From Chloroflexota bacterium (lineage in GTDB: Bacteria > Chloroflexota > UBA11872): 64,000 nt of DNA. Where the stretch lies: positions 26,296 through 90,295 of the forward strand of contig JAPPLN010000001.1 of assembly GCA_028874175.1 (NCBI GenBank). Reading direction: 5' to 3'. Below are positions 4,884 to 45,537 of this stretch, piece by piece (within the stretch, counting starts at the first letter, position 1; each line of letters opens with the position of its first letter). The translations under genes and the position numbers were made by a program. Under the pieces are notes generated by a model that saw only the letters and a program-made list of their open reading frames with translations, did not search any database and was not told the origin of the DNA.

Positions 4884-5753
4884 CTACGCGTAGTCTCCGT
4901 GGGCCCCGGTTCCGCTGGGGTCGGCGAGTTCGTCGGCGCCGCAGAGGTAGCGCCACCAGTCGGCGCGTTCCTGGGCGACGGCCGAAGATTCGCCGGTCAG
5001 GTTGTGGGCGTTCTTGTTCATGCGGAAGAAACGCCGGATTTCCTCGCTGTCCCAGCCGTCGGTGTTGAAGATGCCGCGCTGGGGGACCCGCGGGTTGTAG
5101 CGAATCTTGAACATGAAGCGCCACTGATCGATCTCGTTGGTCTGGGCGCAGTGCCAAAGGGCCTCGTGCATGAAGACGATGCGCCCGGCCTTGCCTGACA
5201 AGCGCTTCTGACCGGTGATGTTCTTGTAGCGGGCCACGTCGGGGCCCAGCACGGAGCGCATGTGCGAGCCGGGGAGCACCAGCGTGGGGCCCATCTCATG
5301 CGGGGTGTCGTGGGCGAAGTAGGCCGTGAGGATGTCGAACGACCAGGGGTGTACGCCCGGGAGCCGCACCTGGCGCCGACCGCCGGCGTCCACGTGCCAC
5401 TGCTGCGCCGTCGCCTGAAGCGGCCCGGTGCAGTGCAGCGCCGAGTGACTGGCCACGTGCCCGGGACCCAGCAAGCTCTGCAGCACGGCCTTCACGCGCG
5501 GAAGATTGTGCACGGCGCGCACGGCCGCGGATCGCTCGTAAAAGCCGTGCGGGTTGTCGGTGATGTGCCAGCGGACCTCGGGTATGGGGCCGTCCTCGTT
5601 GACCGATGCCAGTTCATCGGCATAGACGGCTTCGCTTAGTTCGTCCGGCACGAGGTCATCGAACTCGATGAAGCCATCGATGACGAAACGCGCCATCTGG
5701 TGCACGTCCAGGAGATCGCTTTGCGCCATGACTTCGGTCTCTGCGATGGCCAT
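4884..5753 (-). CDS. phytanoyl-CoA dioxygenase-family protein (PhyH 1)
   Basis: This 289-residue Fe(II)/2-oxoglutarate dioxygenase has His120-x-Asp122 in QQWHVDAGG. The distal iron-binding histidine is in ALWHCAQTN and is followed by RFMFKIRYNPR, which supplies the 2-oxoglutarate arginine. I chose the ATG at 5753 (MAIAETEV); the track's 76-residue extension is arginine-rich and antisense to the next gene. Substrates of such bacterial PhyH paralogues are mostly unknown and need not be phytanoyl-CoA. It lies 46 nt downstream of a small DGWR-motif protein on the same strand, an arrangement repeated at 44327-45537. Confidence 0.85.
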   Translation of the reverse strand: MAIAETEVMAQSDLLDVHQMARFVIDGFIEFDDLVPDELSEAVYADELASVNEDGPIPEVRWHITDNPHGFYERSAAVRAVHNLPRVKAVLQSLLGPGHVASHSALHCTGPLQATAQQWHVDAGGRRQVRLPGVHPWSFDILTAYFAHDTPHEMGPTLVLPGSHMRSVLGPDVARYKNITGQKRLSGKAGRIVFMHEALWHCAQTNEIDQWRFMFKIRYNPRVPQRGIFNTDGWDSEEIRRFFRMNKNAHNLTGESSAVAQERADWWRYLCGADELADPSGTGAHGDYA

Positions 5754-5799
5754 GCCTTGGCTCCTTACCGTTGCGGCGCTCAGGCGGCGCCGTCGACGT

Positions 5800-6084
5800 T
5801 TACCCCTCGACTTCGACGATGCGTTCCAGCCAGAACTCGTTCGCCAGTTGTCCCGTCCCGGTGCCCGCGCTGCGCTCGGGTTGGGGGCTGGCCTGGAATA
5901 CGCGCCAGCCGTCGCGCATGGCGTCCAGGACGGACTCGTATGGAACCTCGTACTCGCTGCCCGTCTGCATCTGCACGGCATCCGCCGGCAGCGCCCCGTC
6001 GTAGAGCGCCCAGGCGACGGTGGGCGAACCCAGGTCGCCCGACTGGAGATGCAGGATCAGAATCTGCTGCCGAACTGGCGACAT
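5800..6084 (-). CDS. small DGWR-motif protein, PhyH partner 1
   Basis: This 94-residue protein of unknown function has the core PYESVLDAMRDGWRVF and ends in FWLERIVEVEG. The same core (PYQTVLDAIQDGWRII, ending FVLEKIRSA) occurs in the protein at 45163-45537, which also sits directly upstream of a PhyH gene. There are no membrane segments or cysteine motifs. It is probably a small soluble alpha/beta protein. It is co-directional with PhyH 1 and divergent from PhyH 2, so it is flanked by two dioxygenases. A role as an accessory subunit or regulator of PhyH enzymes is inference from position only. Confidence 0.75.
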   Translation of the reverse strand: MSPVRQQILILHLQSGDLGSPTVAWALYDGALPADAVQMQTGSEYEVPYESVLDAMRDGWRVFQASPQPERSAGTGTGQLANEFWLERIVEVEG

Positions 6085-6147
6085 TCCGTCCCCTTGCGGC
6101 GAAGCGCGCGGCTCATGGTACCGAGGCGGCTCGAAACCGCGCCTCGA

Positions 6148-6153
6148 TATAAT
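6148..6153 (+). promoter_or_regulatory. TATAAT -10 box for PhyH 2
   Basis: A perfect TATAAT lies 29 nt before the ATG at 6183, in the divergent region between the small DGWR protein and PhyH 2. The -35 region is poor. Confidence 0.5.
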
Positions 6154-6182
6154 CGGGTGGCAGGCCGACAGGGGTGGGGCGC

Positions 6183-6953
6183 ATGGCCTTGCACACGCTT
6201 ACGGAGGATCAGGTCGCGTTCTACAACGAGCGCGGGTACCTGCGGCTTCAAGATGTTTTCTCTCCCGACGAGGTCGAATTCCAGTCAGTTGAACTTGAGC
6301 GCCTGATGCTCGAGTGGGCCCAACAGACGCCAGGCTGGCGCGGCCCCTGGCGCAAGGCCTACATGACGGCCGAGGAGGACGAACGCGCCCGGCTCACGGC
6401 CATGCACGAGTTGCAGAACTATTCCGAGGCCTTCGCGCGGGCGGTCGTGAACGACCGGCTTACCGGCGCCGTGGCCGACCTGATCGGCCCGCATGTGGAA
6501 CTGCATCACACGACGCTGCACGCCAAGGCCCCGGACATGGGAACGCCGTTTCCCATGCACCAGGACCACCCGTTTTATGAGCATGAGGGTCCGGCGTACG
6601 TGGACGCGATTGTGCATATCGATACGGCAAGCGAGCAGAACGGCTGCCTACAATTTCTTGAAGGGAGTCACAAGCTGGGGCCGCTCCAGCACATCCGAGG
6701 CCCCGAATCGAGCCCACACTTGCCGACGGACGAGTACCGCCTTGAGGACGCCGTGTCGGTTCCGGCCGACGCCGGGGACGTGGTGTTCTTCAGCTACTAC
6801 ACCATCCACGGCTCGGCGCCCAACCGGACGGACCAATGGCGTCGTCTCGTCCGGTTTGGCTACCGCGACCCTGACAACGTCCAGACGGCGGGCCAGGGAC
6901 TGGGGCGCGACGGGCTGATGGTGCGCGGCCAGAAACGGAATCGGGCGGCGTGA
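6183..6953 (+). CDS. phytanoyl-CoA dioxygenase-family protein (PhyH 2)
   Basis: This 256-residue Fe(II)/2-oxoglutarate dioxygenase has His126-x-Asp128 in PMHQDHPF. The second histidine is in YYTIHGSAPN and is followed by the arginine-rich strand RRLVRFGYRDP. The chosen ATG at 6183 is preceded by AGGGGTGGGG; the track begins 9 nt earlier at a GTG. It begins with the usual PhyH helix (LTEDQVAFYNERGYLRL). It is divergent from the DGWR protein and PhyH 1. Its substrate is unknown. Confidence 0.87.
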   Translation: MALHTLTEDQVAFYNERGYLRLQDVFSPDEVEFQSVELERLMLEWAQQTPGWRGPWRKAYMTAEEDERARLTAMHELQNYSEAFARAVVNDRLTGAVADLIGPHVELHHTTLHAKAPDMGTPFPMHQDHPFYEHEGPAYVDAIVHIDTASEQNGCLQFLEGSHKLGPLQHIRGPESSPHLPTDEYRLEDAVSVPADAGDVVFFSYYTIHGSAPNRTDQWRRLVRFGYRDPDNVQTAGQGLGRDGLMVRGQKRNRAA

Positions 6954-40211: not shown

Positions 40212-40342
40212 TCACGCGAGTCCTGGCTGGACGGGTCGCGTCCGATCTTACGGTGCGTCCGCCCGCGCCCATGTGGGGCGACCAGGCTCCCCGCGCTCAG
40301 GCATCATGCGCGCATCAGCCGTGTCTCCCGCCGGAGTCCGTC

Positions 40343-41482
40343 ATGCCGACCTACCGCGCCGCTGCCATAGCCGATTCCACGCTCGAACGCGCCTACGGAC
40401 ACGCCATTCACCAGGCGTTCTACGAACTGCCCAACGTCGAGCTGACAGCCCTGGCCGACCCCGTGGCCGAGCCCCGGGCAGAGCGCGCGGCCGAAATCGG
40501 CAACCCCAAGCAGTACGACGACTACCGCGACATGCTCGCTGCCGAGTCTCCCGACCTGGTCTCGATATGCCCGCACCACTTCAAGCACCACGGGCGCTGG
40601 CTCCTCGACGTCATCGAGTCCGGCGTCAGGGGCATCTACATCGAGAAGCCCATCACCGCCAGCCTCGACGAAGCCGACGCCGTCCTGGAGGCGGCCGACG
40701 CCGCCGGAACCAAGATCGCCGTCGCCCACCAGAACCGCTACCGCCCGGGAACGCACCGCGTGGCCGAGCTTGTCCGCGAGGGCGCCATCGGAACCCTTCG
40801 CTACATACACGCCGTCGGCAAGTGCGACCAGCGCGGCGGCACCCACGACCTTCGCGTGCTCGGCACCCACGTGCTGGACGCCCTCCGCTTCATCGCCGGC
40901 GACGTGGCCTGGGCCACCGGCCACATGCAGGTCAACGGACGCGACGTCACGGTCGACGACGTTTTCGACGGCCCCGAGGGCCTCGGCCAGATGGCCGGCG
41001 ACGCGCTCACGGGCTACTTCACATTCGAGTCCGGCGCCATCGCCCGCTTCGACACCTACACGCGCCCAGCTGGCGGTCCGTCCCCGTGGTTCGGCTACGA
41101 ACTCTGGGGCACCGAGGGCGGCATCTCGGTGCGAGATGCGGGCCGCACCATCCTTCGCTATCCCGCGCCCGCCAACCTTCCGGGCGACTCGTCGCTTTCC
41201 TGGGAACCCGTCGATGTTGCAGACCTCGCCTACCCGGACGGCAGGCCGGCCACCGACGCCCAATTGCTCGATGCCCTCAACCGCCACGCCGCCGCCGACA
41301 TCATCGACTGCATTGAAAATGGCGGCGAACCGGTCTCCAGCGCCCGCCAGGCAACCGCCGCCCTCGAAATGGTCATGGCCATCCTCGAAGGCCACCGCAC
41401 CGGCGCCCGCGTCTCGTTCCCCATGCAAACCCGCGCCAACCCCCTGGCGGTCTGGCAGATTGAAGAAAGAGCCGACGGCTGA
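40343..41482 (+). CDS. Gfo/Idh/MocA-family oxidoreductase
   Basis: This 379-residue protein starts at the ATG at 40343. The dehydrogenase signature EKPI is at 101-104 and the substrate region GTHVLDALRFIAG follows the family pattern. The N-terminal strand AAAIADSTLERAYGH lacks the usual GxGxxG nucleotide-binding loop, so cofactor binding may be altered. Such proteins oxidise or epimerise sugars and inositols. It is followed by an SGNH esterase and may work on the same glycan. Confidence 0.85.
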   Translation: MPTYRAAAIADSTLERAYGHAIHQAFYELPNVELTALADPVAEPRAERAAEIGNPKQYDDYRDMLAAESPDLVSICPHHFKHHGRWLLDVIESGVRGIYIEKPITASLDEADAVLEAADAAGTKIAVAHQNRYRPGTHRVAELVREGAIGTLRYIHAVGKCDQRGGTHDLRVLGTHVLDALRFIAGDVAWATGHMQVNGRDVTVDDVFDGPEGLGQMAGDALTGYFTFESGAIARFDTYTRPAGGPSPWFGYELWGTEGGISVRDAGRTILRYPAPANLPGDSSLSWEPVDVADLAYPDGRPATDAQLLDALNRHAAADIIDCIENGGEPVSSARQATAALEMVMAILEGHRTGARVSFPMQTRANPLAVWQIEERADG

Positions 41483-44326: not shown

Positions 44327-45163
44327 TCAGTACCTGGCTGCGGTGGGCTCCCCGGGGAAGCCTCTGGGCGATGCGTTGCGGTGGCCGGGCATGGGCCAGC
44401 CCTGGCCGCCCATGGTCTGGTACTCACCGGACTTGCCGCACAGCCAGAAAAACATCTCGGACGCATCCAGGGCGTCCCGAAACTGCTGCCGCAATCCCCG
44501 CAGGACGAACGCGTAGTCGGCCTGGGCAAAGTCGAAGTCCGGCTCGATCACCCAGTCGCGCGCCGGCGGTGACGTGCGCCAGTAGTTGTACTTGAGGAGA
44601 TTGCGGACTCCCCGCGCCGTCGATACGGAGCGCCGATGCCAGATGGAATAGACGGTGAGAAAGATTGAGCCGGCGGACGCGACGGTCTTGACGGCGTGTC
44701 GGAGGTTTCCGTAATGCCCCATCATGCTGGAGTGCTGGAACAGGAAGTGCGAACCGGGGAGCACCTCGGTAGGCCCCATCTCGGCCGTGCATGCCTCGGG
44801 GTAGTAGAAGACCTGCAAGTAGTGGAGCGCAGGTCCATAGCGTGACCCGCCGTCACGATGCCAGCCTTGCGCCGGCGCCGGCATGTGCACGCGGTGGTTG
44901 CTCATTAGGACGGGCGTCTCGAACCCCACGCCCAGCAGCGAGCGGACGGCGCCGGCGGCCGCGGGATTGAGGATTACGTTCTCGACAAACCAGTCCTCGG
45001 CCAGGATGTCGGTTGGCTCGAGGGAAGTGTTGTGGTCGACGAAGGCGACGGTCTTGCGGTTGATCTCCTCCGGCACCACGCCGTCGAGGAGCAGATAGCC
45101 GTGTTTACAAAACTCCAGGACTTCGGTGTCGGTCAGCGTCGGCGCGATGTGCGAGGTATCCAT
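44327..45163 (-). CDS. phytanoyl-CoA dioxygenase-family protein (PhyH 3)
   Basis: This 278-residue Fe(II)/2-oxoglutarate dioxygenase has His102-x-Asp104 in QGWHRDGG. The distal histidine is in SIWHRRSV and is followed by the arginine of ARGVRNLLKYNYW. The start codon overlaps the stop of the small DGWR protein (TGATG), so the two are translationally coupled. Its substrate is unknown. The proline-rich C-terminus (MPGHRNASPRGFPGEPT) is probably disordered. Confidence 0.86.
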   Translation of the reverse strand: MDTSHIAPTLTDTEVLEFCKHGYLLLDGVVPEEINRKTVAFVDHNTSLEPTDILAEDWFVENVILNPAAAGAVRSLLGVGFETPVLMSNHRVHMPAPAQGWHRDGGSRYGPALHYLQVFYYPEACTAEMGPTEVLPGSHFLFQHSSMMGHYGNLRHAVKTVASAGSIFLTVYSIWHRRSVSTARGVRNLLKYNYWRTSPPARDWVIEPDFDFAQADYAFVLRGLRQQFRDALDASEMFFWLCGKSGEYQTMGGQGWPMPGHRNASPRGFPGEPTAARY

Positions 45164-45537
45164 CAGGCGCTCCGAATCTTCTCGAGTACAAACTCGGCCC
45201 CGTAGGCATACGTGCGCGACTCGTCGAGCAACAGCGCGAGGTTGGGAAACTCAATGATGCGCCAGCCGTCTTGGATGGCGTCCAGAACGGTCTGATAGGG
45301 CCAGTCGTCGGGATCGTTCGCGCCATCCGAAAGTTCGCCGTCAATCACCGTCCGCATGCCGATCACCTGGGTGTCCAGGGCCGTGCCGGCGGCTTGCAGG
45401 TACAGCAGATCCTGGCGGGCATTGCCAGCGGCAGTCAGTTCGTCCCGAATGGTCGCGAGCCTGGACTCAGTTAAGGTTCCGGCGCGAAGCTCCGCAATTC
45501 CCTGATCGAGCTTCGTTGTAATCGCTTCGAGCCTCAT
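45163..45537 (-). CDS. small DGWR-motif protein, PhyH partner 2
   Basis: This 124-residue protein starts at the ATG at 45537; the track's 69-residue extension runs antisense to a gene remnant. The N-terminal half is helical (MRLEAITTKLDQGIAELRAG). The C-terminal half carries PYQTVLDAIQDGWRII and FVLEKIRSA, shared with the protein at 5800-6084. Its TGA overlaps the PhyH 3 ATG. The recurrence of this pair suggests that the proteins function together. The biochemical role is unknown. Confidence 0.78.
   Translation of the reverse strand: MRLEAITTKLDQGIAELRAGTLTESRLATIRDELTAAGNARQDLLYLQAAGTALDTQVIGMRTVIDGELSDGANDPDDWPYQTVLDAIQDGWRIIEFPNLALLLDESRTYAYGAEFVLEKIRSA

Follow-up and report, generated by a model that had tools for sequence, protein, structure and literature searches.

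The PhyH family of 2-oxoglutarate oxygenases (PF05721) includes EctD, SptF, PHYHD1, proline hydroxylase H11 and phytanoyl-CoA dioxygenase. In Poribacteria, PhyH genes exceed 1.9% of all genes, and most of these are without an assigned function (PMC3909097). The PHYHD1/FJS 2'-O-methylnucleoside demethylases, also of the PhyH type, have methylated ribose as their target (PMC12709175). The closest described system with a partner protein is TlxI/TlxJ of talaromyolide biosynthesis (PDB 7VBQ), a heterodimeric 2-oxoglutarate oxygenase in which kcat/Km rises from 0.02 to 1.63 min-1 uM-1 when the incompetent partner is present (reviewed in PMC12141560). A literature search for described partners of PhyH proteins returned TlxIJ-type cases only; the pairing of a PhyH protein with the small DGWR protein considered here was not found, which is not proof of its absence. 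We think it likely that one subfamily of PhyH-type Fe(II)/2-oxoglutarate oxygenases has the DGWR protein as its dedicated non-catalytic subunit, docking on the PhyH protein and probably serving sugar- or cyclitol-type catabolism.

The window, by which is meant the whole 64,000-nucleotide stretch of Chloroflexota DNA that was analysed, carries two such small genes. Copy 1 (5800..6084, minus strand) specifies a protein of 94 aa, the short form, with the core motif PYESVLDAMRDGWRVF at 5896..5943 (minus strand), predicted to form a helix and the strand after it. By the ORF calls, the gene for its partner 2-oxoglutarate oxygenase, PhyH1 (4884..5753, minus strand; 289 aa, with HxD residues H120/D122, H201 and R212), starts 46 nt downstream on the same strand, while a further PhyH gene, PhyH2 (6174..6953, plus strand), is divergent. 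Both PhyH1 (E 3.1e-08) and PhyH2 (E 3e-35) match PF05721 above the Pfam cut-off, and the ORFs and these matches agree with the original prediction of a 94-residue protein placed between a same-strand and a divergent PhyH gene. The small ORF of copy 1 shows dN values of 0.014-0.22 across relatives, far below the dS values of 0.11-1.4 or saturated, and is therefore a real gene; PhyH1 behaves alike. Of the two-PhyH setting originally envisaged, the link to PhyH1 stood and that to PhyH2 did not. Among 12 relatives from the genus, PhyH2 adjoins the DGWR/PhyH1 pair in 10 and is about 2 kb away in two. It is outside the partner score group, being absent from the three matches at E 1e-30 or better given by the partner-PhyH profile in genome G000. 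It belongs to a different PhyH subfamily and is a neighbour within the genus only, no part of the conserved pair.

Copy 2 (45163..45537, minus strand; 124 aa) is of the long form, with an N-terminal extension and the core motif PYQTVLDAIQDGWRII at 45253..45300 (minus strand). Its stop codon overlaps by one base the start codon of its PhyH partner (44327..45163, minus strand; 278 aa), which also matches PF05721; the scores of this partner (25.9 bits) and of PhyH1 (34.6 bits) exceed the gathering score of 22 bits. The proteins of copies 1 and 2 align over 42 residues (E 1e-07), and a core common to a second small protein that precedes a PhyH gene, as first proposed, was recovered together with the gene overlap. 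At the DNA level the motif is not rare (2 seen vs 1.7 expected), so that the evidence sits at the protein level. A third copy in the host genome (L002) also overlaps a PhyH gene. Adjoining the second pair in convergent orientation is a gene for a xylose isomerase-like TIM barrel protein (PF01261; 43474..44307, plus strand), which provides pathway context only, and a few kb from the pair lies a 409-aa ORF (40253-41482) that, by inspection, resembles a Gfo/Idh/MocA-type oxidoreductase.

The small protein has no match above cut-off in Pfam (both window copies and 16 further members) and none in NCBIfam or PADLOC (window copies). The family occurs in two forms: members of the short one have about 90-97 aa, and those of the long one have about 120-125 aa and carry an N-terminal extension. 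Positions with little or no variation hold A, W, L, Q, P, Y, D, G and E, with no Cys or His among them. It spans at least nine phyla. Members in the Chloroflexota include those of Caldilineaceae, SAR202 and the host lineage, although the distribution there is sporadic (32/400 genomes), and other member genomes are titled Latescibacterota, Poribacteria, Gemmatimonadetes, Acidobacteria, Zixibacteria, Spirochaetia, Planctomycetota, Myxococcota and Actinomycetota. With few exceptions, the genomes are metagenome bins. Searches of phages and plasmids gave no phage member and one Streptomyces plasmid. Several candidate relationships were considered and rejected. DUF4177 (PF13783) is of similarly small size and shares a conserved Gly-Trp and basic residues at the end of its C-terminal strand, but the resemblance is one of motif only, with an hhalign probability of 0.8%, an alignment out of register and no Pfam match. 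When PDB sequences were searched, 14-3-3 proteins came up at E 0.055 or worse, which was taken as chance, and the match between TacA1 and one member (E 0.021) is below cut-off and covers the N-terminal extension only. The long open frames at L114 and L126, which might have been domain fusions, are read-through of overlapping frames.

Gene linkage was assessed on 227 loci, reduced to 156 distinct domain sequences, two of which could not be judged because of contig ends. In 148 of the 154 judgeable family members, the next gene downstream, on the same strand, is a PhyH gene, as it is in 25/25 members from a further group of 291 genomes. The 156 include 62 members, from 23 genomes, that were found by profile with no selection by DNA motif; of the 61 judgeable ones, 58 were immediately linked. 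The linkage between DGWR and PhyH genes is near-obligate and specific; the original prediction had inferred a functional link from the repeated neighbourhood, and pointed to a family mostly unlinked to PhyH genes elsewhere as the result that would speak against it, but the gene-neighbourhood analysis supports the link. Of the six exceptions, two (L070, L116) have a divergent partner-type PhyH gene nearby, one (L188) has a partner-type PhyH gene beyond one intervening gene, and three (L090, L144, L202) have no PhyH gene within reach. The PhyH-less DGWR gene of L090 (4001-4357) is situated between genes that look, from their sequence, like gcvPA and gcvPB (glycine decarboxylase subunits). As a background, the 3.3 Mb host genome has 31 PhyH genes, about 1% of its genes, and other genomes have anything between a single PhyH gene and 80 or more; the Myxococcota genome G405 has just one in its 6 Mb, and this is the DGWR partner. 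On the Streptomyces sp. NBC_00316 plasmid (NZ_CP108024.1; L240 7183-8261), the order of the PhyH and DGWR genes is reversed and they overlap by four bases, and this speaks against the pairing being an accident of how the genes are ordered. The proteins of this pair are WP_267009352.1 (PhyH) and WP_267009353.1 (DGWR). In six Caldilineaceae loci (L065, L066, L067, L069, L083 and L089), the DGWR gene is separated from the typical partner gene by a second, divergent PhyH gene.

The association is also reciprocal. A partner profile made from 46 PhyH proteins was run over 25 genomes, and separated a group of 89 PhyH genes scoring 249 bits and above from the next, at 224 bits and below. A DGWR gene was found within 2.5 kb of 79 of these 89, immediately upstream in 71 cases, leaving ten partner-subfamily genes without one in that distance, whereas the 17 PhyH genes ranking next in similarity had none immediately upstream (0/17). 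The partner is therefore one PhyH subfamily and not PhyH proteins generally. All 46 scanned partners match PF05721 at E 0.001 or better, and H120, D122, H201 and R212, which correspond to the Fe(II) facial triad HxD...H and the 2-oxoglutarate-binding Arg, are invariant among them. Judged by these residues, the iron and 2-oxoglutarate site of the partner is complete, and the partner is predicted to be an active oxygenase. Six of the 46 show weak matches to NCBIfam TIGR04436, SpoChoClust_3 (best 2.7e-06), a possible named relative. That the small gene overlaps the larger one could also be expected of a passive operon habit, or of a toxin-antitoxin or defence pair, but such an explanation is hardly credible: the linkage is kept over many phyla and survives reversal of gene order, the partner retains the residues of an active oxygenase, PADLOC gave no match for the window copies, and the reciprocity (79/89 vs 0/17) contradicts it. 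The tree distances of the two proteins are correlated over 95 pairs (Mantel r 0.61) and over the 86 typical partners (r 0.82), the maximum r in 2000 shuffles of the full set being 0.12. Adjacent genes co-evolve, whether their products bind or not, and as shared inheritance explains part of the correlation, it supports long-term pairing and not binding as such.

AlphaFold2 modelled the small domain alone with a pLDDT of 88.2 and a pTM of 0.79, as a fold of five strands and one short helix, and Foldseek found nothing significant for this model in the PDB or BFVD (viral) structure libraries. Structure prediction of the complex, originally suggested as a check, was carried out on the relative L026, in which the two genes are in frame and reading through the single stop codon gives a 12-residue link. 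The linked pair gave a pLDDT of 87.4 and a pTM of 0.86, values that apply to the true pair of L026 alone and to an alignment of mostly unpaired rows, with 15 paired. The PhyH part of the model resembles SptF, EctD and proline hydroxylase H11. By our estimate, pTM would reach a ceiling of about 0.72 were the small domain left unplaced; the value obtained is higher, and docking of the small domain on the PhyH protein is thus predicted. Protein hydroxylation by 2-oxoglutarate oxygenases is known, and the small protein might instead be a substrate of its PhyH neighbour, with the conserved Pro-Tyr or the Asp of the core motif as examples of residues to be hydroxylated. Conservation of P48, Y49 and D58 in at least 90% of members would fit this; however, the conserved residues are spread through a compact, confidently predicted fold and do not sit in an exposed variable core peptide, and the surrounding genes are metabolic, so that we regard a substrate role as very unlikely.

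The neighbouring genes offer some indication of function. Xylose isomerase-like TIM barrels (PF01261) account for 8 of 106 neighbour ORFs, compared with about 1% of genes, and other neighbours include Gfo/Idh/MocA oxidoreductases, short-chain dehydrogenases, UxuA and MR_MLE proteins. At the Streptomyces locus (L240), the genes beside the pair are iolB, iolC and iolD, together with one of Gfo/Idh/MocA type and one for a TIM barrel. This locus (HTH_18), L062 and L126 (both confirmed by Pfam) each have an AraC-type regulator in divergent orientation to the pair. Regulators of AraC-like appearance are divergent from short-form pairs at L057, L058, L060, L061, L062 and L126, with Pfam confirmation for L062 and L126 only, and genes resembling BNR-repeat sialidases, as recognised by eye, occur near the long-form pairs of L028 and L018. 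The context probably, if weakly, points to the catabolism of sugars, sugar acids or cyclitols, and to no one substrate. Small mutarotase-like proteins are common in sugar-type operons, and with neighbourhoods so rich in sugar-type enzymes, PF01261 included, the DGWR protein could be a separate component of the pathway, such as a binding protein, a mutarotase- or isomerase-like enzyme or a substrate carrier, which handles the same compound and forms no stable complex with PhyH. This is an unlikely reading, since the link to PhyH itself persists across varied operons, the small protein is without conserved Cys or His for catalysis, and AlphaFold docks it on PhyH (pTM 0.86).

If the DGWR protein is indeed a dedicated subunit, the two proteins would be made together from overlapping or closely spaced genes, and the small protein, with its five strands and one short helix, would dock stably on the oxygenase, where it would probably shape or close the substrate pocket, or else stabilise the enzyme. 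Catalysis would be left to the PhyH partner, with its full iron and 2-oxoglutarate site, and the pair would probably take part in the catabolism of sugars, sugar acids or cyclitols. The chances are evenly balanced for a broader proposal, in which these pairs constitute a widespread class of two-component 2-oxoglutarate oxygenases whose activity or specificity depends on a small subunit of previously uncatalogued fold, and which serve the catabolism of sugars or cyclitols in some Streptomyces and in many uncultivated bacteria from soil, the sea and sponges. Since the pair of one Streptomyces strain lies next to inositol catabolism genes, its function is directly testable. In practical terms, the DGWR protein marks one PhyH subfamily and so provides a handle on it, and a PhyH protein of this kind expressed alone may fail or mislead, should a subunit be missing.

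Compared with the described PF05721 oxygenases, the DGWR partners belong to the same family and keep the HxD...H...R site, but form a score group of their own, and no listed solved relative is labelled as having a comparable small partner. The PHYHD1/FJS enzymes set a precedent for sugar-type substrates, although the abstract of PMC12709175 mentions no DGWR-type partner for them. TlxI/TlxJ is alike in that a catalytically incompetent protein is paired with a PhyH-type oxygenase, the complex being a predicted one in the present case. However, TlxI is fungal, and is a full-size PhyH-type protein that has lost its 2-oxoglutarate-binding residue, whereas the DGWR protein is bacterial, has 90-125 aa, and matches PhyH neither in sequence nor in fold. 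The DGWR protein would add a non-homologous small partner to a family whose known auxiliary, TlxI, is itself of PhyH type, and by analogy TlxI/TlxJ is the nearest precedent, similar in its presumed way of working but with an unrelated type of partner.
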